Translations under genes and position numbers: made by a program
Shown: positions 11,840-26,350 of the stretch, one piece after another
How positions within the stretch are numbered: position 1 is the stretch's first letter
Layout: each line of letters starts with the position of its first letter
The notes under the pieces: generated by a model
The model's database searches: none
The model's input: the letters and a program-made list of their open reading frames with translations, nothing else
What the model was told of the DNA's origin: nothing
Virus record (IMG/VR): IMGVR_UViG_3300031951_000982
Coordinates: 1-27,645 of that record
Reading direction: 5' to 3' (one strand)
DNA length: 27,645 nt
Source of the DNA: a virus

Positions 11840-12661
11840 TCAGAAGTTCTCGCTGAGGAGGTTGAAGTTCGCGAACTCGGGGAACGGCTGACGCCATCGG
11901 CAGGATTGAGCGACCTTCTCGCCGTTCGGCATCTCGACCAGCTTCGGCTTGCCGTCCGCGTCCTTGTCGACGACTTGGATCATGTGGTAGAGCGAGTCCT
12001 GAGAGAACGAGTGGACGAGCGACACGCGGTCGACGCCGATTCGGTTCGCCTTGGCCCCGCGATACAGCACCTGTCCGATGGGAGCGCCTTGGAACTCGGC
12101 GAGGTTTCGCTTGCCGCGCGCGGCGCGGATGAGCTGCGACCGATCGGGCAGCGTCGAGAGCGCGACGGTCTCCACGAACTCAATCGTGCTGAGGTTGTGG
12201 AGAACCGTCATCGGCTCGCCAGCGACATCGATCGATGTCCCGCCGACGAACGCCTCGTTGCTCGGAGACCCGTACTGCGGGATGCTCATGCCGGGATTCA
12301 CGCGGTAGAAGTCGCGGAACTCGACCGACCAATCGACGCTGAACTGGCTGTACCCGATCTCCTGCGGCTGCTTCTCGAGCGGCTCCGAGTTCTCGTAGGT
12401 GAAGTCGACCCGCCACTCGTAGCGAGACTCGATGTCTGGCTTCAGCGTGTACGACTTCGCGTAGAGCGCGGTATCGCCCGGGAACTGCGACCCGATGTCG
12501 GGGATGTCGACGCCGTCGACGGTCGTTCCGAACAGCGCGCGCACGGCGGCGGCGGTCGTCAGCGGCGTCGAGTCGTTCCAGACGGCGAACCGCCGCGTGG
12601 CGGTGATCTTGCCATCCGACCACGACTCGTTCCGCGTCTCCTGTAGTTCGATCGCTGGCAT
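11840..12661 (-). CDS. Putative distal tail/baseplate protein, 273 residues
   Basis: The product starts MPAIELQETRNESWSDGKIT. It is a mixed beta protein with 'TATRRFAVWNDSTPL', 'ESRYEWRVDFTYENSEPLEK' and 'VHSFSQDSLYHMIQVVDKDA'. It lies directly after the tape measure gene, where siphoviruses usually encode distal tail or tail-tip proteins, so that role is inferred from order only. The start shares one base with the upstream stop (TGATG), a coupling junction. No catalytic motif is visible. Confidence 0.6.
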   Translation of the reverse strand: MPAIELQETRNESWSDGKITATRRFAVWNDSTPLTTAAAVRALFGTTVDGVDIPDIGSQFPGDTALYAKSYTLKPDIESRYEWRVDFTYENSEPLEKQPQEIGYSQFSVDWSVEFRDFYRVNPGMSIPQYGSPSNEAFVGGTSIDVAGEPMTVLHNLSTIEFVETVALSTLPDRSQLIRAARGKRNLAEFQGAPIGQVLYRGAKANRIGVDRVSLVHSFSQDSLYHMIQVVDKDADGKPKLVEMPNGEKVAQSCRWRQPFPEFANFNLLSENF

Positions 12662-13944
12662 CAGATGAACCCCGCTGATCTCTGCTGGTCTCGGATGTTG
12701 GTCATGAGGCCGACCAGACGCTCGTCGTTCTTGCGCTTGTCGGCTGCCGGGTACGCGTCGAACTTGAAGGAGCCGAGCGCGGTCTGGGCGCTTCCGATTC
12801 CCGCCTGCTGCGACGAGACGCGCTGCTGCTCCAGATCGGCTATCTCCTTGATGCGATCCTCGTTCGCCCCGACCTCTTGCATCCTGAGCCTCGACGCCTC
12901 CTCGGCTTCGCGCCTGATGCGCTTCTGCTCCGCTTCAGCCTGCTCGCGATCGCGCCGAGCGGCGTCGTCGGCGAGCTTCTGGTTCTGTTCGGCTTCCTTC
13001 TTCGCGGCCTCGTCGAGGTTCTTCAGCGTAAGGTCTCGCTCCATCATCAACAGCGAGACCTTGCGGTCGTGCCGCTCGTCGATCATCTTGACGATCGTCT
13101 CGTCCTCCGTCTTCGCGCGCTCGAGGTTGGTCTCCATGTTCAGGAGGCTCAACTTCTGCTCGTACTCCGCGCGCGCGATGCCCGCCTCGTTGCCAGACAT
13201 CTTGACCACGGCCACCTGTTGCTCAAGCTCAAGCCGACGATTCTCAAGCATGAGGGAGCCGCGCGTCGCGGCGTTCTCTGCCTCGATCTCGTTCTTCCGC
13301 GCCGCGCCGGCAAGCATTGAATCGCGCGCCGCCATCTGCTTCGCGATCAGGTCTTCCGCCGCCTTGTCCGCCGCGCCGAATGTGCTGTCGTAGATCGCCT
13401 CGCCGAGGTTTGCGAACGCGCCGACGAACGGGATCGTCTTGATGCCGTCGAGGATGGCGTCGGGAATCGACTTGTCCGACCTCATGAAGTTCGCGACCGC
13501 GTTCGCAAGTCCTGCGGCCATCATCGGGCCGGCGATGTTCTTCAGCATCCCGACCGACTTCGTCTGGAACGAGTCGGAGAAGTCGAAGCCGCCGCGCTCG
13601 CCCGCCTTGCGCATCTGCCCCGTCGCGCCCTTCGCCGCCACGACCTCTATGGCCTTCGGCACGGAGACATCCATCGCCTGCTTCGCGCCCTTGGTCACCG
13701 CGTCGTCAATCGCCTTCGGGACGGTGTCCTCGACGGCCTTGGCGACCTTCTTCGGCATCGCCGCCTTGATCGCGCGGCTCACCTCCTCGGCGATGCCCTG
13801 CCCCATGTCCTTGCTCGACGCGCCCTGAAACGCCGTTCCCGCGCGCTTGCCGGACTCAAGGAACGCGGCCTCAATCTTCGCGAACTGCGCGTCGAGCGCG
13901 GCGAGATCGGCCATGACGGAGATTGAGAGATTGCCTGCGCTCAT
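12661..13944 (-). CDS. Tail tape measure protein (short)
   Basis: This is a 427-residue product starting MSAGNLSISVMADLAALDAQ. It follows the two overlapping chaperone frames and precedes tail-tip genes, which is the tape measure position. Residues about 55-115 contain repeats of 'VPKAI..AV.KGA' type, residues about 135-190 have two hydrophobic segments (GPMMAAGLANAVANF; TIPFVGAFANLGEAI), and residues about 205-395 form a long charged coiled coil. These are tape measure traits. At the usual rule of about 0.15 nm per residue it would give a tail near 64 nm, short for a siphovirus. The start overlaps the chaperone frame as ATGA. Confidence 0.75.
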   Translation of the reverse strand: MSAGNLSISVMADLAALDAQFAKIEAAFLESGKRAGTAFQGASSKDMGQGIAEEVSRAIKAAMPKKVAKAVEDTVPKAIDDAVTKGAKQAMDVSVPKAIEVVAAKGATGQMRKAGERGGFDFSDSFQTKSVGMLKNIAGPMMAAGLANAVANFMRSDKSIPDAILDGIKTIPFVGAFANLGEAIYDSTFGAADKAAEDLIAKQMAARDSMLAGAARKNEIEAENAATRGSLMLENRRLELEQQVAVVKMSGNEAGIARAEYEQKLSLLNMETNLERAKTEDETIVKMIDERHDRKVSLLMMERDLTLKNLDEAAKKEAEQNQKLADDAARRDREQAEAEQKRIRREAEEASRLRMQEVGANEDRIKEIADLEQQRVSSQQAGIGSAQTALGSFKFDAYPAADKRKNDERLVGLMTNIRDQQRSAGFI

Positions 13945-14138
13945 CGGCTCTCCACATATCGACGCATCCAGTCTCCGTTTTCAGCCTGCGCCGACGAATG
14001 GCCGTTCAGCGCCAGACGGAGGTGCGCGTCGAACTCGCCGCAGGTGAGGTCGAACGGATGGCCGAGTCCTGGCGATGCGCGCGCGATCAGATGCGCCTCT
14101 GCAACGGGGTCGCGCTCGACCACGGGAGGCGCTATGCG
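13941..14138 (-). CDS. Tail assembly chaperone T-frame, expressed by -1 frameshift
   Basis: This second reading frame is open from the slippery site to 13941, giving 65 residues from CGC at 14138. It starts R-I-A-P-P-V-V-E-R-D-P-V and ends 'NGDWMRRYVESR'. It has no good start or ribosome binding site of its own. It lies in the -1 frame relative to the upstream gene, as in lambda G/GT. The fusion would be 198 residues (133 from the first frame plus 65). Its stop overlaps the tape measure start as ATGA. Gene order and frame geometry make the assignment strong, although frameshifting itself is predicted. Confidence 0.8.
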   Translation of the reverse strand, partial: RIAPPVVERDPVAEAHLIARASPGLGHPFDLTCGEFDAHLRLALNGHSSAQAENGDWMRRYVESR

Positions 14139-14144
14139 TTTCCC
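14093..14144 (-). promoter_or_regulatory. Programmed -1 frameshift signal (GGGAAAC plus stem)
   Basis: GGGAAAC (14138-14144) sits in the X-XXY-YYZ phase of the upstream frame (TCG GGA AAC), two codons before its TAG. Five bases later a perfect 7-bp stem starts (GCGCCTC at 14126-14132 pairs with GAGGCGC at 14093-14099). It encloses a 5-bp GGTCG/CGACC hairpin (14108-14121). This is the classic arrangement of slippery heptamer, short spacer and structured RNA. Confidence 0.85.
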
Positions 14145-14536
14145 GACTGCGGCTCGTCCTCTGCATCGAGCGTGTCCGTGTCGATGCCGAGCGCCTCGAG
14201 ACAGGTTCGGCTCAGTTCGCGCGGCAGCGCCTTCGAGCTGAAGTCGTTCGCGATCTCCGCGCTGCCCATCGACACCGTCAGGATGCGCAGCGCGCCCTTG
14301 AGGCTGTACGCGTCGAGGTAGAGCGCCGTCGTGTTCATCGCCTTGCGGCGAGCCTCTCCGATGTGCTCCGCCGCCTCGGCGCGCCCCATGCCCGCGAGCC
14401 GCGCGTCCTCAGCCGCCGCGCGCGCGCGCTCGGTGGCGAGTTCCTCGGACAGCGCGAGGCGCTGCCGAACCGTGAGGGGCGAGGCGCGGAAGTCCGTGCC
14501 GCCGACCGTGCAAGTCCACTGCGTGAGCCGAATCAT
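14132..14536 (-). CDS. Tail assembly chaperone (gpG-like)
   Basis: This is a 134-residue product starting MIRLTQWTCTVGGTDFRASP. The middle is helical and charged ('EELATERARAAAEDARLAG', then 'LYLDAYSLKGALRILTVSM'). The C-terminus is acidic (DTDTLDAEDEPQSGNA), as in tail chaperones. It lies between the tail tube and tape measure genes. In lambda-like phages G and the frameshift product GT act as scaffold chaperones for the tape measure during tail assembly. A GGAGG ribosome binding site precedes the ATG, which overlaps the upstream stop as ATGA. The slippery site is two codons before the stop. Confidence 0.8.
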   Translation of the reverse strand: MIRLTQWTCTVGGTDFRASPLTVRQRLALSEELATERARAAAEDARLAGMGRAEAAEHIGEARRKAMNTTALYLDAYSLKGALRILTVSMGSAEIANDFSSKALPRELSRTCLEALGIDTDTLDAEDEPQSGNA

Positions 14537-14802
14537 GCGCGCCTCCGAAGCAGTGCCGCAAACGGGTCGTCAAGTACGATCTGCCTGTCGCCCGCGCGGC
14601 GGATCGACCATCGGTCGACCTCATGCGGCTTGACGCCGCTCGAGACGAGCGCGAACCCAAGCGCGGCCTCTTCCGAGACCGTGCCGGGGTTGACGCGACG
14701 CGACCAAGCCCGTCCATCCTGCTGCACGACCGAGACGACCCAGTCGGTGTCGCCCGGCCCGCCGAAGGCGAGCACCGTTTCCTCTGTAGATGCGGTTTTC
14801 AT
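14533..14802 (-). CDS. Small protein between tail tube and chaperone genes, 89 residues
   Basis: The product starts MKTASTEETVLAFGGPGDTD. It continues 'WVVSVVQQDGRAWSRRVNPG' and 'WSIRRAGDRQIVLDDPFAAL', a mixed alpha/beta protein. No ribosome binding site is evident before the ATG; the start is 7 bases after the tail tube gene stop, so coupling is likely. Its stop overlaps the chaperone gene as ATGA. It is not a family I recognise; position suggests a tail assembly or tail completion role. Confidence 0.6.
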   Translation of the reverse strand: MKTASTEETVLAFGGPGDTDWVVSVVQQDGRAWSRRVNPGTVSEEAALGFALVSSGVKPHEVDRWSIRRAGDRQIVLDDPFAALLRRRA

Positions 14803-14809
14803 ATGAGTG

Positions 14810-15232
14810 TCAGACGAGCCATGTCACGACGGGCGCTGTGCCGTCTGCGTTGGCGAAGTTGCAAGTCAGCGTCGACTCGCCGTTCTTGTCGGAGTTGAAC
14901 GCGAAGTTGTTGAACACGCAGTTCGCGGCGATGCGCGCATCGGTGGTCGACGCGGCATCAAAGAGCGTGAGCGTGAGCGCCGCAGTCGCGGTCGAGACGA
15001 AGAACGACGCGGTGTTGGCGGTTGCCGTCGAATCGATGGCGGGCACGCCGTTCAGCGATCCAGTGAGGTCGAGCAGACCAAGGCGTCGGCGCTTGCCGGT
15101 GTCGCCGAATCCGGTCAGGTCGCTCTCGGGGCGCGCGAGCGTCGCCGCGAAGGTCTTGACCTTGATGACATCGCCGCCGGTGGGCATCGTCACATTGCCG
15201 TCGTTGCCGATGAGATAGGTGTTGATTGGCAT
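14810..15232 (-). CDS. Major tail (tube) protein
   Basis: This is a 140-residue product starting MPINTYLIGNDGNVTMPTGG. It has the common tail tube pattern: an N-terminal strand, 'VIKVKTFAATLARPESDLTG' with 'FGDTGKRR...LLDLTGSLNG' next, then beta strands ending 'STLTCNFANADGTAPVVTWL'. In siphoviruses this protein stacks as hexamer rings to form the tube. It lies between the tail completion gene and the chaperone pair, as expected. A GAGGAT ribosome binding site precedes the ATG. It is short but within the range for a minimal tube fold. Confidence 0.75.
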   Translation of the reverse strand: MPINTYLIGNDGNVTMPTGGDVIKVKTFAATLARPESDLTGFGDTGKRRRLGLLDLTGSLNGVPAIDSTATANTASFFVSTATAALTLTLFDAASTTDARIAANCVFNNFAFNSDKNGESTLTCNFANADGTAPVVTWLV

Positions 15233-17348: not shown

Positions 17349-17557
17349 CAGGTGTCCTTCTTCTTCCCCCTCTTCGACGCTTTCGGAGGAGCGGTCGAAT
17401 CCACGAACAGCGGCGCGGGTTCGATCAGGCGCTGCGCGTACTTGCCTTCGACGAGCCGGCGCGCGGTCGCCTCGTCCGCGTTGAAGACAGTGCCAGGGCG
17501 CAGAGACCGCCGCCCCGTGCCCGGCTCGAATATCGCGCAGTTGCGGAGGCAGATCAG
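17348..17557 (-). CDS. Small head-region protein, probable CTG start, 69 residues
   Basis: The frame opens directly at the stop of the glycosyltransferase gene. No ATG, GTG or TTG exists near its 5' end. The first usable codon is CTG at 17555-17557, overlapping the TGA as CTGA, like the ATGA/GTGA/TTGA junctions of its neighbours. The product is 'ICLRNCAIFEPGTGRRSLRP', then 'GTVFNADEATARRLVEGKYA' and a basic C-terminus (KASKRGKKKDT). The 'EATARRLVEGKYA' motif occurs in small phage head-region proteins. Reading as a frameshift tail of the upstream gene is an alternative. Confidence 0.55.
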   Translation of the reverse strand: MICLRNCAIFEPGTGRRSLRPGTVFNADEATARRLVEGKYAQRLIEPAPLFVDSTAPPKASKRGKKKDT

Positions 17558-18588
17558 TAGGTCTTGCACTGCTCTGGCCTCCCGTGCTTCGAGTGGTCGC
17601 CGTTCCACTGGTTGATGACGCGGAGGTCTTCGCCCGGCCATGTCACGACGAGCTGGAGATGCCCGATGCGGACGCGCGGGCACACGGACACATTGTTCCC
17701 CGCCGCGTTCCACTTCTTCCAGAAGTAGATGTCGTCGTCGACCTTTGCCTCTCCCCACTCGCCGCGCTCGTCGGGGGTCGACCAGAACCACGGCTTGGCC
17801 ATTCGCTTCAGCGCGTCGACGCGGAAGAGCGTCAGGCCCATGTGTCCCGTCTCGCACTGCACGGCGTCCGTGTGGAACTTCGTCGAGTCGATCGTCTTGA
17901 GCCGCTGTCCATCCTCGCCGAGCATGGTCAGGAGCACCGAGTCGCGGTCGCGCCCGATCTGGAGCGGGAACAGCGCGTCGACATCGGGTCGCGTCTCCAT
18001 GATCTGCCACAGGCGGATGATGTCGGCCTCGTCGAAGATGGAGTCGAAGTCGATCGTCAGGACATACTTGCGGCCTGGCTCCGCGACCACGGATTCCATG
18101 ATCCGCTGGAGGCATTGCCCCCAGAACACGCCCGTGGACTTCATGAAGTCGATGCCGAGCTTCGCGCACGACAGGTGCGTCGCCGCCATCGTGTCCGTCC
18201 ACGCGACGCGCGGGAGGCTCATCACGGCGTGGATGTCGCGCATGGGGTACTGAGGCTTCGGCAGCGCGAAGCGCCGCGCCACGGCGCGCAGGACGGAGCC
18301 GTCCGACTCGATGTTCCCGAGGCGCTGCAAGCCCGCCGCGTCGAGCAGCCGCGACAGCTTCTCGCGGTTCCAGAGGCTCGAGTACTTGCCGCTGCCGAGC
18401 GCCATCTCCTCGACGCTTCCCGTGCCGTCCGCGTACGCCTTCGCCGCCGCGTCGAAGTCCGGAACGCAGAACGCCGCGCTCTGGCCCTCGTCCAGTTTCG
18501 CGGCGCATTGTTTGGCGATGTCGAGTTCCTTGCCGATGGGCGCGCGCGCGAGCGCGTCGCCGAAATCAATCATGTCCTCTGTATCCAT
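17554..18588 (-). CDS. GT-A-type glycosyltransferase
   Basis: This is a 344-residue product starting MDTEDMIDFGDALARAPIGK, with a GGAGGAATC ribosome binding site. Residues 165-174 (YVLTIDFDSI) give a DxD-type motif (D170-F-D172) for metal and nucleotide sugar. Residues about 272-302 have 'KVDDDIYFWKKWNAAGNN' and 'CPRVRIGHL', the usual acidic and late His elements of GT-A enzymes. Residues 60-95 (SSLWNREKLSRLLDAAGLQR) look like a separate small helical domain and recall the tail of class I methyltransferases. It lies inside the head gene block, which points to glycosylation of a virion or host surface component. The sugar and acceptor are unknown. Confidence 0.75.
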   Translation of the reverse strand: MDTEDMIDFGDALARAPIGKELDIAKQCAAKLDEGQSAAFCVPDFDAAAKAYADGTGSVEEMALGSGKYSSLWNREKLSRLLDAAGLQRLGNIESDGSVLRAVARRFALPKPQYPMRDIHAVMSLPRVAWTDTMAATHLSCAKLGIDFMKSTGVFWGQCLQRIMESVVAEPGRKYVLTIDFDSIFDEADIIRLWQIMETRPDVDALFPLQIGRDRDSVLLTMLGEDGQRLKTIDSTKFHTDAVQCETGHMGLTLFRVDALKRMAKPWFWSTPDERGEWGEAKVDDDIYFWKKWNAAGNNVSVCPRVRIGHLQLVVTWPGEDLRVINQWNGDHSKHGRPEQCKTY

Positions 18589-18622
18589 GATTCCTCCGAG
18601 TTGGTTGTGTGCCTCCACAGAC

Positions 18623-20613: not shown

Positions 20614-21282
20614 TCAGAGATAGATCGCGCCCTTCGCCCGCGCGATCTCGCGCTTGACGATGGTGTCGATGTCAATCGGCGCGCGCTTCGCTCCAGTTGA
20701 GGGCGCGGGAACATTCACGGTGACGACCACGCGCTTCGGCGCTTCGATGCCGAACCACTTCTTCGCGGCGATCGGCGACATGACGCCCTTCTTCACGGCG
20801 GTGATCAGCGCCTCGGGGTTCGCCTGAAGCGGCGCGAGGCTGACCTCGAGCAACTTCCAGCGCGAGAAGATGGTCGAGACATTGCCGCCGTACTTCTTGC
20901 GGTCGACCTCGGTGGCGCGGCGCGTGCCGCCGTCCTCGGGCACATAGCCGACGCTCACGCCGTTGACGATGCCCTGACCGACGAGCGCGGCGGCGACCTC
21001 GGGGAAGAACTCGCCCGCGTAGCCCTCTGGCCGCTGCGCGAACGCGAAGTCGCCGACGATGTCCCGCTCGCGGCGCTTGAGGCCGACGCACTTCCCGACA
21101 GGCTCCGAGTAGTCGTGGTTCCAGAAGAGCACGGGGTTCTGCTCGAACTCCTTCGAGTTCATGCCCTGCGGGATCAGCACCTCGCCATCGCGGTCAATGG
21201 TCTCTGCGGTGATTACTGCGGTGAATCCCTTGGCGCTGCCCTCGATGCGGGCGGGAAGAGCCTTGCGGTTGATGTTGGTCAT
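20614..21282 (-). CDS. Prohead serine protease, HK97 type
   Basis: This is a 222-residue product. Catalytic candidates are His56 in 'VLFWNHDYSEPVGK', Ser110 in 'GIVNGVSVGYVPED' and Glu146 in 'WKLLEVSLAPLQANPEA'. They match the His/Ser/Glu pattern of the HK97 gp4 family, which digests the scaffold region of the capsid protein and itself during maturation. The length is normal for the family. The start overlaps the portal-fusion stop as ATGA. The C-terminal part (KRAPIDIDTIVKREIARAKG) is probably removed on autoprocessing. Confidence 0.9.
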   Translation of the reverse strand: MTNINRKALPARIEGSAKGFTAVITAETIDRDGEVLIPQGMNSKEFEQNPVLFWNHDYSEPVGKCVGLKRRERDIVGDFAFAQRPEGYAGEFFPEVAAALVGQGIVNGVSVGYVPEDGGTRRATEVDRKKYGGNVSTIFSRWKLLEVSLAPLQANPEALITAVKKGVMSPIAAKKWFGIEAPKRVVVTVNVPAPSTGAKRAPIDIDTIVKREIARAKGAIYL

Positions 21283-24200
21283 GGTTTCACCGTTCCTGCC
21301 TCGATGTTGATTCGCCGCGCCTCGCGCTCGATGTCGCCGCTTTCACGGATGCGGCGGGCGATCTCTTCCATTTCTGGGTCGAGCCTCGGCTGCATCGAGC
21401 AGCGGCAGTTCGGGTGCAGCGGAGGCCCGGCAACATCCTCGTAGTCGAGGAGCAGCGATCCGCCATCGGCTCCCGTGATGGTGTCGCCCTTCTTGAAGAA
21501 GGTGTCTCCAAGGCCGATCGCGTTCGTGCTGAACGACTTCGACGCCGCCTCGCAGAACTCGCACGGGTCGGGCGCGAGAAGCCAGGTCTTGCCCTGAACC
21601 ATGCCCGTCGCGCTCCACGCCTCGACCTCGGCGACGCGCGCGGCGCGCATCGACTCCGTGCGGGCGATCGTCGTCGCGCGGCTCCACGATCCGTCCTGAT
21701 CCTTCTGCGAGTCCGCCCACTCCTGCACCCGGCTCGCGAGCTGCTCGGTCGTCTCGCCGCTCTCAAGGCCGCTGCCGAGCACCTCGCGCACGCGAACCGA
21801 CTGCGTCTCGACGACGCCTGCTGCGGTCTGTCGGGAAAGCCTGATCGACTCGGTGTCGGCATACGCAGCCAGATCGCGGCGCTCGATGGAGAAATCGACC
21901 TCGGTCGCAATCTTGCTGACGGTGTCGATGCCGATCTCGGCTCCCGTCGCGATGGCCTCGCGGAGGTACGGCGCGAGAGCCTCGACGATGGCGCGCTGGT
22001 ATCCGCGCGAGCGGATGATGCGCTCGGCGTCGGCGATCAGCTGCGGCGTCGGGCGATCGGTGCTAGCGAGCTTCTCGAGCAGTTCCTTGACCTGAGCGTC
22101 AAAGACGATGGACACCTTGGCGGCGGCTTCGGCCTCGGACTTGGCGATCCTCTCCGCCTCCTTCTCCGCGCTCTTGGTCATCAGCCACGCGCCGAAGTCG
22201 GTCGCGTGCTTGCCGACGAACTCGGACTGCTTGACGCTCTTGGTCTTCGCGCACCCACAACCGCAGGACTTTTTGTCTCGCTGGCGGTCGAACTCCTCGA
22301 CCTTGCGCCTTGCCCACGCGAAGCCCTCGTCGCCGCCCCATCCGTTCCACGCCTGCCAGCCCTTGCCCTGATCGTCCCAAGTCTCGCCCTGCTTGTCGGA
22401 CTCATGCCGCTCGAAGTACGCGACCATGCGACGGATCGTGTCCTCGCTCAGGTTGGCGCGGTTCGCGAGGTCGCGCGCGCGCGCGATGCCGATCTCGGTC
22501 ATGCCGCGCTGCGACTCGGGCTTGGTCTCGCGGACTTCGAGCGCGCGGCGCGCGTTCGACGCGACCGACTCGGGCGGCTTCGTGTCGATGTCAGAGACGG
22601 CCTTGCCGATCGACTCCTCCAAGCCCTTGCCGCCGCACATCGAGTACGCGATGGCGACCGCCTGATCCTGCTCGTAGCCTTCGCCAATGAGCTTGCCGAC
22701 CTTGTCGGACACGCAGTCGCCGAGCGCGTCCTTGCGCTCGACTGACTTCGCTCCGATCTGCTGTCCGCTTGCCGGCGGTTGCGGAGGAACGGCAGATGCG
22801 CCCTGTTGGATCGGGTTGAAGATGGACGCAATCGTCTGCGGCGAGATCGTCGGGAACGCAGCCGATGCGATGGACACCGCCGAATCCTTCGGGAGTTCGC
22901 CGAGCTGGATCGACTTCGCGAGGTCGACGAGGCTTGCGATCTGCGCCCCGTTGAGCGCCGTGTCGGCGATCGCCTCGCCAGAGGAAGGAGCCTGCGGCTG
23001 CGATGCCGGCCTTGCGGCAGGCTGAACCGCACCAGACGGAGCCGCAAGGGGCAACGCCGATGCGCCGAGTGGCTGGCCGCTGATCAGCAGCCGAGACGCG
23101 TTGGGGTCTTCCAATGCCTCCAGACCCTCCATCTCGCGCGCCTCGTTCGCGGTGATGATTCCGCCCGCGACATAGGTGCGGCGCTTCTCCGTCTCGAACT
23201 TTTCGTCGGCGGCGACGGGGTTGTCGTACGCAAGGAACGCGTCGCCCTCGATGCCGAACATGGGAAGGAGCGTCTGGTTCAGAACCTCTTCGTCCATGCG
23301 CATGAGCGGCAGGACGCTCGTCGCCTTCCAAGACGCAAAGCCGACCGTCGCGCTCGCGAGGTTCGGATCGTTCGCCTTGAGCATCGACACGGGCACGCCG
23401 AACACAGCCGCGATCTCCTCGACGATCTGCTCGCGACCCATCATGTCCTTTGGCGAGAACGACAGGGGCTTGATGTCGATATCAGCGGTTGCCGTGAGGA
23501 AGCGACCCGTGCGGCGCGTGCCGCGCAGCTTCGAGTCGATCTGCGCCTCGAGCCGCTCGATCTCGTCTGGAGAAGCGTCGCCCTTGATCGTCAGCAGCCA
23601 ATCGGGTCGCGCCTTGTTCGCGAACCAGTGGTAGTCCATCTCGTGCAGGGACTGATTGTTCGTCGTCGCCCACCACGCGGCCTCGACCTTGCCCATCCCG
23701 TAGTAGATGTCTTTCGGGTTCGGGCGCTTGAAGTGAATGACCTCGTTGGACGGGAAGAACGCGCGCCGCTCGTACGACACGCCGTAGAGGTAGCCGTCGA
23801 TCACCTTCTCGGTGCCCGGCACGACCTCGACCCACTGCGAGGGCATCGTCCACAGCTCGACGGGGACGCCGAGGCGCTTGTCGAGCACGGCGTGGAGGTA
23901 CGCGTTGCCCGTCAACTCGAGGTACAGCACGCGCAGGACGGTCTGCTCGAAGCCGTTTTCCCAAGGGTTCGCCTTCGACAACAGGTCGAGGACGGGGTGG
24001 TTCTCGGTGATGACCTCGTAGTCGTCGCCGTATTCCGCCGCCTTCGTCATCGCGTAGCGCGACGGGAGCTGGTCGAGGGAGCCTGAGAGATACGCCTTCG
24101 TGCGGCGATCCGTCCTGCGCGTGTTCCAGAGCTTCGTGCCCGCGCTGCGGTTCCGCACATACAGACGGAGCGGCTGCGAGGCGACGGCGTAGGCATTGAG

Positions 24201-24359
24201 GTTCGCGGCGGCGTAGATCCACGACGCGTAGTGGCTGACCGCCTGACCGTTCGAGAACGACGGGCGCTGCGTGTCCCCGCTGATCACCCGCGTCGAGGAC
24301 TGCAACCACTTGCGCGAGTCCGTGACGGCCTTCTGGAACAGCCTAGAGAGTAGCGACAT
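21279..24359 (-). CDS. Portal protein fused to MuF-like domain (1026 residues)
   Basis: The start is MSLLSRLFQKAVTDSRKWLQ at an ATG one base over the terminase stop (TGATG). Residues 1-420 are an HK97-type portal ('HPVLDLLSKANPWENGFEQT', 'ELTGNAYLHAV', 'VPVSMLKANDPNLASA', 'TANEAREMEGL'). A Pro/Ala linker follows, then 'TALNGAQIASLVDLAKSIQL' (about 478-497), 'CVSDKVGKLIGEGYEQDQAV' (about 559-578), and 'IGIARARDLANRANLSEDTI' with 'MVAYFERHESDKQG' (about 630-670). A CGCGC cluster and a long helical part come next. The MuF end has 'PCEFCEAASKS' and 'PPLHPNCRCSM'. Portals form the dodecameric DNA gate; MuF proteins sit in the head. Confidence 0.85.
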   Translation of the reverse strand: MSLLSRLFQKAVTDSRKWLQSSTRVISGDTQRPSFSNGQAVSHYASWIYAAANLNAYAVASQPLRLYVRNRSAGTKLWNTRRTDRRTKAYLSGSLDQLPSRYAMTKAAEYGDDYEVITENHPVLDLLSKANPWENGFEQTVLRVLYLELTGNAYLHAVLDKRLGVPVELWTMPSQWVEVVPGTEKVIDGYLYGVSYERRAFFPSNEVIHFKRPNPKDIYYGMGKVEAAWWATTNNQSLHEMDYHWFANKARPDWLLTIKGDASPDEIERLEAQIDSKLRGTRRTGRFLTATADIDIKPLSFSPKDMMGREQIVEEIAAVFGVPVSMLKANDPNLASATVGFASWKATSVLPLMRMDEEVLNQTLLPMFGIEGDAFLAYDNPVAADEKFETEKRRTYVAGGIITANEAREMEGLEALEDPNASRLLISGQPLGASALPLAAPSGAVQPAARPASQPQAPSSGEAIADTALNGAQIASLVDLAKSIQLGELPKDSAVSIASAAFPTISPQTIASIFNPIQQGASAVPPQPPASGQQIGAKSVERKDALGDCVSDKVGKLIGEGYEQDQAVAIAYSMCGGKGLEESIGKAVSDIDTKPPESVASNARRALEVRETKPESQRGMTEIGIARARDLANRANLSEDTIRRMVAYFERHESDKQGETWDDQGKGWQAWNGWGGDEGFAWARRKVEEFDRQRDKKSCGCGCAKTKSVKQSEFVGKHATDFGAWLMTKSAEKEAERIAKSEAEAAAKVSIVFDAQVKELLEKLASTDRPTPQLIADAERIIRSRGYQRAIVEALAPYLREAIATGAEIGIDTVSKIATEVDFSIERRDLAAYADTESIRLSRQTAAGVVETQSVRVREVLGSGLESGETTEQLASRVQEWADSQKDQDGSWSRATTIARTESMRAARVAEVEAWSATGMVQGKTWLLAPDPCEFCEAASKSFSTNAIGLGDTFFKKGDTITGADGGSLLLDYEDVAGPPLHPNCRCSMQPRLDPEMEEIARRIRESGDIEREARRINIEAGTVKP

Positions 24360-25537
24360 CAGATGACCTTCATGATCAGGGGCTTCCTCTGCCGTCTTGC
24401 GTGAACGGCAAGAGCGAGCGCGCACACGCCGTCGTCGTGCCCGGCGGTTGCCTCATACGAGACAGTCCTCCCCGAGTATCGGTAGCCGAACGCCTCAAGT
24501 TCAGCGCGGAGCCACCCATCGGGGTAGCGGATGTCGCGTCCCTGCACCGCGATCTGCAAGCCCTCCATGAGCTGTTGCTTGCTTTGCGATGTGAACTTGA
24601 ATCCCTCGACGCGGCGGCAGACCTTGCGCAGATCCTCGACGATCGGATCGCCGACGCCCGTCGAGTCGATCTGCGCGGGCTTGTCGCCGATCGTGCGCGC
24701 GAGGCGCTCGCGCGTGACCGACCACGGCGCTTGCCAACGCTCGAGCCGGCAGACCGCGCCGTCCTTGTCGAGCGCGAGCGCGACGGTGTAGTCCTGGCTC
24801 TTCGCGAGGTCGACGCCCCAGCACTCGGGCGCGGCGGTCGAGAGCTCGCCGATGCACGAGCGGATCGCGTCGAGGCCGAACGGGTTGCCGCCGTCCTCTG
24901 CGGGGATGCCCTCGTACTCCTGTAAGAACACCTCTGGCGGCAGCGATCGCCGCGCGGCCTCGACCTCGTCGCTCGGAATGTGCGGGTTCTGGCTCGTTCC
25001 GATGCGGAAGGCGCGCATCTCGCCAGTTGTGTCACCTTCCGCCTCGGTGAACAGGCGGTGAAAGTCGCCCGTGCCCTTCGGCGTGCCGAGGAACAGCGCG
25101 GTTCCCCTGCGGTCGGAGAGCGTGGGTCGCGCCGCGTTGCGCCACCATTCGAGGAGGTGCGGCACGAACCCCGCCTCGTCGACCACGATCAGGTCGTAGT
25201 CGCGCCCGCGCCCGGCGTCAATGTCCTCGAGCGACCAGAAGTCGATCACGCCGCGCGTGACGAGCTCGAGGCGCTTCTCGACGCGATCCATGCGCGCCGT
25301 GACGGGCGCGAGCGCGCGCTCAATGTCGCGCATTGGGTCGGCGAGGTACTTGTAGGTCGGCGCGAACCATCCGACCTTTCGTCGGTTAATCGCGGCGCGC
25401 TGCGCCTTGACCTTGCCGTAGGTGGTCTTTCCCCAGCGCCGACCGATCTCAAGGACACTGAAGCGCGCGAGCGCCTTGTCGACCGTCATCTGAGACGGGT
25501 GCAGGATCGATGAGAGCGGATGGAGCTGGATTCTCAC
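24359..25537 (-). CDS. Terminase large subunit
   Basis: This is a 392-residue product from a GTG at 25535-25537 overlapping the small subunit stop as GTGA. Walker A is GRRWGKTT (residues 32-39), Walker B is LIVVDEAG (116-123) with Asp120 and Glu121, and a coupling motif LGTP lies near 140-143. The nuclease half shows Asp223 (GVDLAKSQDY), Asp291 (IDSTGVGD) and Asp358/Asp359 (AGHDDGV), the RNase H-like metal site. It packages DNA through the portal using ATP and cuts the concatemer. It is slightly short for the family but complete in motifs. Confidence 0.9.
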   Translation of the reverse strand: MRIQLHPLSSILHPSQMTVDKALARFSVLEIGRRWGKTTYGKVKAQRAAINRRKVGWFAPTYKYLADPMRDIERALAPVTARMDRVEKRLELVTRGVIDFWSLEDIDAGRGRDYDLIVVDEAGFVPHLLEWWRNAARPTLSDRRGTALFLGTPKGTGDFHRLFTEAEGDTTGEMRAFRIGTSQNPHIPSDEVEAARRSLPPEVFLQEYEGIPAEDGGNPFGLDAIRSCIGELSTAAPECWGVDLAKSQDYTVALALDKDGAVCRLERWQAPWSVTRERLARTIGDKPAQIDSTGVGDPIVEDLRKVCRRVEGFKFTSQSKQQLMEGLQIAVQGRDIRYPDGWLRAELEAFGYRYSGRTVSYEATAGHDDGVCALALAVHARRQRKPLIMKVI

Positions 25538-25869
25538 GCATCGGCCTGCGGGATCTTCGCGGCGATCTCCTCGATCGTCACGACCTCTTCGCGAACGGTC
25601 GTGTCCGCCTTGTCGCGCTGGTCGAGGTACTGCTTGCCGAGCCAGATGAGCATCGGGACGCTGCCCTCGCGCGCCTTGGTGTACTGCCAGCGCCGAAGGC
25701 TCATCCTCATGTCGTCGCGACCCCTGTCGAGTTCCGCGCGGAACCGCATGAGGATCGTCTTGCGCGAGTAGCCGAGCACCGTGGCGATCTCCTCGCCCGT
25801 GCAGCCGATCTTGGCGAGCTCGAACACCTTCTTCGGATCGATGTCAGCCTTGGGGCGACCGCGCGGCAT
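25534..25869 (-). CDS. Terminase small subunit-like DNA-binding protein
   Basis: This is a 111-residue product starting MPRGRPKADIDPKKVFELAK. 'IGCTGEEIATVLGYSRKTIL' (residues about 21-40) is a clear helix-turn-helix, followed by 'MSLRRWQYTKAREGSVPMLI' and 'WLGKQYLDQRDK', the usual layout of small phage terminase-type proteins ('GCT-x-E-E-I-A...W-L-G-K-Q-x-L-x-Q-R-D'). It recognises the packaging site and hands DNA to the large subunit. It overlaps the methyltransferase gene end by 26 bases. Confidence 0.85.
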   Translation of the reverse strand: MPRGRPKADIDPKKVFELAKIGCTGEEIATVLGYSRKTILMRFRAELDRGRDDMRMSLRRWQYTKAREGSVPMLIWLGKQYLDQRDKADTTVREEVVTIEEIAAKIPQADA

Positions 25870-26350
25870 CGTTGAAAGCCTCCATGTTCAGGCTGATGAA
25901 GTGCTGGGAGCAGTTCGCGCCCTCGCCGTGCTCAACGATCGCCACGCGCGAGAACCCTGCGTTCTGGAGTTGCGCGGCCAACTTCGACGCGGTGAAGATC
26001 GCATGGTGGAAGTCGTGTTCGTCGGTCTGACCACCCATGAGATACCCCTCGATGAGCGGGTCGGCGCTTCCCGCGATCATGCAGCAGATGATCTTCGCGA
26101 AGTCGGGAACCGCGACGAACAGGCGACCGCCGGGCTTGAGCACGCGCCGCCATTCGCGCAGCGCGGGAACCGTGTGAGCCATCGGTAGATGCTCGAGCAC
26201 ATGAGATGCGCGGATCTCGTCCACGCACGCGTCGGGGATTCCCGCGAGCGACCTGGCGTCGTTGAGATTCTTGATGTCCCAAGAAATCCAGCCGTCCTCG
26301 ACGGTGCTTCCCGCCCCGATGTCGATCTTCAAGAGTTCCTCTGTATCCAT
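25844..26350 (-). CDS. SAM-dependent methyltransferase (type 11-like)
   Basis: This is a 168-residue product starting MDTEELLKIDIGAGSTVEDG. Motif I is 'KIDIGAG' (8-14), with an acidic D25 in 'ISWDIKN'. 'SHVLEHLPMAHT' (49-60) and 'RVLKPGGRLFVAVPD' (69-83) match the class I methyltransferase E-H-x-x and L-K-P-G-G motifs. It is short (usual 200-250), lacking a large C-terminal part. It is upstream of, and overlaps, the small terminase gene. Its start has a GGAGGACAAC leader resembling that of the glycosyltransferase gene. The substrate is unknown; a sugar or small molecule is more likely than DNA, as no DNA-specific motif is seen. Confidence 0.75.
   Translation of the reverse strand: MDTEELLKIDIGAGSTVEDGWISWDIKNLNDARSLAGIPDACVDEIRASHVLEHLPMAHTVPALREWRRVLKPGGRLFVAVPDFAKIICCMIAGSADPLIEGYLMGGQTDEHDFHHAIFTASKLAAQLQNAGFSRVAIVEHGEGANCSQHFISLNMEAFNDAARSPQG

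Follow-up and report, generated by a model that had tools for sequence, protein, structure and literature searches.

A lambda-like G/GT tail assembly chaperone locus with a probable -1 programmed frameshift in a phage family seen in metagenomes

We found that the minus strand of the window, by which we mean the whole 27,645-nt stretch of viral DNA analyzed here, carries a locus laid out as a G/GT-type tail assembly chaperone pair, and with a probability of about 0.93 we read it as being expressed by ordinary lambda-type -1 programmed frameshifting. The first gene (gene A) ends shortly after an in-phase slippery heptamer, a stem lies immediately downstream, and the second part, which sits in the -1 frame, is strongly conserved among relatives.

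Layout of the locus and the slippery site

The features of the locus are listed in Table 1. On the minus strand, the 3′ end of gene A reads TCG GGA AAC GCA TAG, so that GGGAAAC, the sole GGGAAAC on this strand of the window, stands in X_XXY_YYZ phase two codons ahead of the stop. The spacer between heptamer and stem is GCATA, and the stem that follows these 5 bases consists of 7 perfect base pairs. From 14408 onward, the -1 frame has no stop until the TGA at 13943-13941, which overlaps the ATG (13944) of the next gene as ATGA. A -1 shift would join 133 residues of gene A to 65 of the second frame, giving a predicted fusion of 198 aa with the junction-spanning residues ...PQSGNRIAPPVVER.... On all of these points the preliminary description, which had proposed the heptamer phase, the stem, the fusion sizes and the open second frame, agreed with the minus-strand sequence, although the name "tape measure" that it used for the next gene is a label given by position. 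A point that tells against the reading is that G_GGA_AAC has been described as a slippery site for mammalian ribosomes.

Table 1. Positions of the recoding signal and of neighboring genes in the window.
Feature	Position	Strand	Remarks
Gene A, G-like tail assembly chaperone, zero frame	14132..14536	-	134 aa; ATG start, TAG stop
Slippery heptamer G_GGA_AAC	14138..14144	-	two codons ahead of zero-frame TAG
Downstream stem, 5′ arm GCGCCTC	14126..14132	-	starts 5 nt past heptamer
Downstream stem, 3′ arm GAGGCGC	14093..14099	-	pairs with GCGCCTC
Inner hairpin, 5′ arm GGTCG	14117..14121	-	
Inner hairpin, 3′ arm CGACC	14108..14112	-	
T-like C-terminal part	13941..14138	-	65 aa; -1 frame, read only after shift
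Next gene, probable short tape measure protein	12661..13944	-	427 aa; label by position only
Small gene	14533..14802	-	89 aa; directly precedes gene A; synteny conserved
Probable tail tube (major tail) protein	14810..15232	-	140 aa; weak PHROG match plus position

Wrong as stated was the further claim that the second frame has no start of its own, since an in-frame GTG is present at 14123-14121 and gives a 60-aa ORF in the ORF listing. With this codon, or by termination-reinitiation past the gene A stop, the 65-aa part could be made as a separate small gene. However, no Shine-Dalgarno-like sequence was found ahead of the GTG, which sits within the stem, and its position is not conserved in most relatives. 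Nor would separate initiation account for a heptamer in phase, a -1 relation without exception and a stem immediately behind the heptamer.

The fusion could likewise arise if RNA polymerase gained or lost a base at the heptamer. While some relatives carry GGGAAAA, and hence a run of four As, the longest runs that the window offers are only GGG and AAA, and those on which polymerases usually slip are far longer. Both the strict phase of the tandem codons and the stem that follows them are, moreover, features of ribosomal slippage, and we regard a transcriptional origin of the fusion as highly improbable.

Conservation of the junction among relatives

When gene A and the C-terminal part were each used in alignment searches, 80 viral loci were returned per query. 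An initial search with gene A had found one close relative, 82% identical, in which the heptamer was kept, and a search with the upstream 89-aa gene added five more contigs, with GGGAAAA. Clustering of the relatives gave 33 representatives, in which gene A identity falls to about 25%. The same arrangement was present in two MAG contigs, one with GGGAAAC (L161) and one with AAACCCT (L160); a third genome match (L162) lacked the domain order and was set aside as chance. With gene A of the window or the C-terminal domain as query, tblastn found no match among 50,697 phage records. From these searches the family appears to be uncultivated, with relatives found only in metagenomes and no cultured relative among the matches.

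The preliminary description had proposed a comparison with related phages, and in this comparison the heptamer proved to be kept: of the 33 representatives, 32 had an in-phase GGGAAAN where the two parts meet, with A, C, G or T as the last base, and the remaining one had another in-phase XXXYYYZ site instead. Elsewhere in the same genes, in-phase GGGAAA occurred at none of 6,187 positions. The zero-frame stop fell 0 or 3 nt past the heptamer in 29/33 representatives. At every distinct junction holding both parts, the C-terminal domain was in the -1 frame of gene A, and no -1-frame stop lay between the junction and this domain. Since the record is a metagenomic contig, the break between the frames might be put down to faulty sequencing or gene decay. 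This explanation is refuted by the recurrence of the -1 relation and the heptamer in two MAG contigs and in dozens of contigs that were assembled separately, and we give it practically no weight.

The -1 frame is under protein-coding constraint. Mean column identity was 62% in the C-terminal domain, with the consensus RDW.AEAHLIARAAPGLGNPLDLTCAEFDAHL...DWMRRYVE, vs. 44% in gene A, and when the window was compared with its nearest relatives, 13/15, 18/28 and 17/25 of the differences in the C-terminal stretch fell at third positions of the -1 frame. In the stretch that begins 30 nt ahead of the heptamer and ends 36 nt past it, no ATG, GTG or TTG was found in the -1 frame in 10 of the 33 representatives, and in the others the start codons near the junction were at scattered positions. 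Because of this conservation, the third-position bias and the missing or varying start codons, we concluded that the C-terminal domain is translated, and that a conserved separate start is not the route. Production of the 65-aa part as a gene of its own in the window is, in our judgment, very unlikely, although an ATG does overlap the stop in the GGGAAAATGA clades (e.g., L044, L047, L133 and L085) and a GTGA stands in place of the heptamer in L121. In the GGGAAAATGA clades, the ATG that overlaps the stop is itself created by the heptamer, so that the two modes could operate side by side.

Two kinds of junction departed from the family pattern. The L035-type contigs (L035-L042; eight viral contigs that show two different junction sequences) and L160, a MAG contig, had no GGGAAAN, and carried A_AAC_CCT in phase followed by a strong GC-rich hairpin. 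This unusual slippery site, common to viral and MAG contigs, was seen at L035:4381-4420, in L038 and near 3520 in L160. In L121 (3120-3150), no recognizable heptamer was found, and the C-terminal domain opens with a GTG that shares bases with the stop of gene A (GTGA); this is possibly a split gene translated by reinitiation, or else the site of a C_CCT slip. On a quick tree with moderate branch support, the L035-type contigs, L160 and L121 grouped together, adjoining a GGGAAAT lineage, and a minimum of 10 site-type changes was needed across the tree. We tentatively suggest, at somewhat less than even odds, that one subclade swapped GGGAAAN for A_AAC_CCT with a GC-rich hairpin, and that its neighbor L121 gave up the heptamer in favor of GTGA or a single C_CCT slip. 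If true, these contigs would form a natural series of frameshift-signal replacement and loss in which the fusion partner was retained.

RNA folding downstream of the heptamer

Because the ribosome covers the heptamer, we began the folded stretch after it. The window's fold had a minimum free energy of -21.9 kcal/mol, and 2 of 200 dinucleotide shuffles were as stable; with synonymous-codon resampling, a stricter control, the window by itself was not significant (z -1.3, p 0.11). Across the 33 representatives, the same control gave a mean z of -1.93, with 28/33 below -1, vs. means between +0.18 and -0.82 for seven control stretches in the same genes. Since the 33 sequences are related, we give no joint probability for the folding. 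These values point to a family-wide excess of predicted folding 3′ of the heptamer, with a putative role as stimulator. In frameshifting of the lambda G/GT type, stimulating RNA structures at this place are common, although not always present. When the heptamer was included (78 nt), a different minimum-energy fold was obtained, and the window had no excess stability. An upstream Shine-Dalgarno-like stimulator in the style of dnaX was also considered and rejected, as anti-Shine-Dalgarno pairing was not above the synonymous-codon control.

In most representatives, the predicted stem begins ~3–7 nt past the heptamer, and the position of its 3′ arm differs between clades. With regard to the stem described for the window, 97% of cells were paired in the outer stem in five close relatives, with no covariation found in the window's clade. 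The stem's 3′ arm doubles as code for the conserved AEAH residues. The inner 5-bp hairpin, which the preliminary description had also reported, is present, but it was fully kept only in the closest relative. In the L024 clade, the stem showed one compensatory change, too few to carry much weight.

Under lambda-type frameshifting, the majority of ribosomes would stop at the gene A TAG and release the 134-aa chaperone, while a minority would pause at the stem with GGA in the P site and AAC in the A site. The tRNAs would then move back by one base to pair with GGG and AAA, and translation would continue in the -1 frame, yielding the 198-aa fusion that includes the conserved C-terminal domain of 65 aa. 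If the two products act as in lambda, the 134-aa protein would attach along the length of the tape measure protein, and the fusion would recruit tail tube subunits. Slippage itself, its rate and the roles of both products are what we infer.

Protein assignment and comparison with known systems

The gene order runs from terminase through a portal fused to a Mu F-like domain, an S78 protease, an HK97-like capsid protein, a gp6-like connector, HK97-gp10, a gp17-like tail completion protein, the probable tube protein and the 89-aa gene to gene A with its extension, followed by the 427-aa gene in the tape measure position. This order is the one expected of a head-tail module in a long-tailed phage. 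The tube candidate, placed between the tail completion gene and the chaperone, had a weak match to PHROG 290 (minor tail protein; E 0.0056). The 427-aa gene matched no PHROG or Pfam family; its counterpart is directly next in the relatives and encodes 323–466 aa where complete. The small size of this tape measure candidate and its lack of a family match leave two readings, short tails or a mistaken label.

Within the same module, the portal-MuF fusion is a 1,048-aa frame (21279-24425, minus strand) with a portal domain at E 6e-44 and a Mu F-like domain at E 5e-6, just under Pfam's cut-off. Beside the terminase gene, a methyltransferase domain protein is encoded at 25844-26350 (minus strand; Methyltransf_11, E 7e-8). 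Between the capsid and connector genes lies a 354-aa protein (17554-18618, minus strand) with no Pfam match, which on an impression from its sequence resembles a glycosyltransferase.

Scans of the window's gene A against Pfam, PHROGs and NCBIfam returned no tail-chaperone profile and no name, and we took a match to phrog_7061 (HTH, E 0.017) as chance. PHROG 344 (tail assembly chaperone) was matched by two of 28 gene A relatives (best E 0.0011), the window's gene not being one of them. In Foldseek, the gene A model (AlphaFold2, pLDDT 92) retrieved an Arthrobacter phage chaperone (E 0.026), and when the PDB was searched by sequence with a profile of gene A, a multifunctional fusion protein matched weakly (E 0.0022). 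Two of the three top solved structures for this model in VIA-align were B. subtilis YqbN (PDB 3klu; Z 4.1, 14% identity) and the HK97 tail assembly chaperone (PDB 2ob9; Z 3.3, 15% identity), both weak matches whose low Z alone does not prove homology. For the C-terminal domain, modeled with moderate confidence (pLDDT 75), no clear structural match was found. The assignment of gene A as a chaperone is strong when all of these lines are combined with position and frameshift, and no single line is strong by itself.

The locus resembles lambda G/GT, in which the heptamer is GGGAAAG, in that overlapping frames directly precede the (probable) tape measure gene, a -1 shift at GGGAAAN falls near the end of the first frame, and the fusion adds a separate C-terminal domain. 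The G/GT logic put forward in the preliminary description is thus supported, as both the gene order and the strongly conserved -1-frame domain fit it. The locus differs from lambda in having G_GGA_AAC as its heptamer, a strong downstream stem, a 65-aa C-terminal part and a zero frame that ends within one codon of the heptamer, and no sequence similarity to lambda G/GT was found in the searches made. According to PMC5009743 (citing Levin 1993; Xu 2004, 2013, 2014), a low-level -1 shift in lambda produces gpGT, which binds the tape measure protein through its G part and the tube protein through its T part, and long-tailed phages widely share this arrangement even though their sequences have little similarity. 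The g-t fusion of HCTV-1, a haloarchaeal tailed virus, uses the heptamer G_GGA_AAC (PMC5009743), which is identical to that of the window; HCTV-1 is an archaeal virus, and the comparison covers the heptamer. Among actinobacteriophages, PRFect, which lists XXXYYYZ as one motif type, reports a joined frameshift gene in 2,476 SEA-PHAGES genomes (PMC10885494). The chaperone frameshifts in that set involve the same kind of gene and the same logic as in the window, whereas the window's family had no tblastn match among the phage records searched.

The principle of this frameshift is already established, and the window's locus adds another example; the AAACCCT subclade and the apparent GTGA junction of L121 are mildly new. 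With this locus, the conserved frameshift of tail chaperones reaches a broad family of phages seen only in metagenomes, in which gene callers that rely on start codons would split or miss the fusion protein. The relatives provide natural variants of the stem and of the heptamer, with A, C, G or T as the last base of GGGAAAN, with AAACCCT, or with no heptamer at all.
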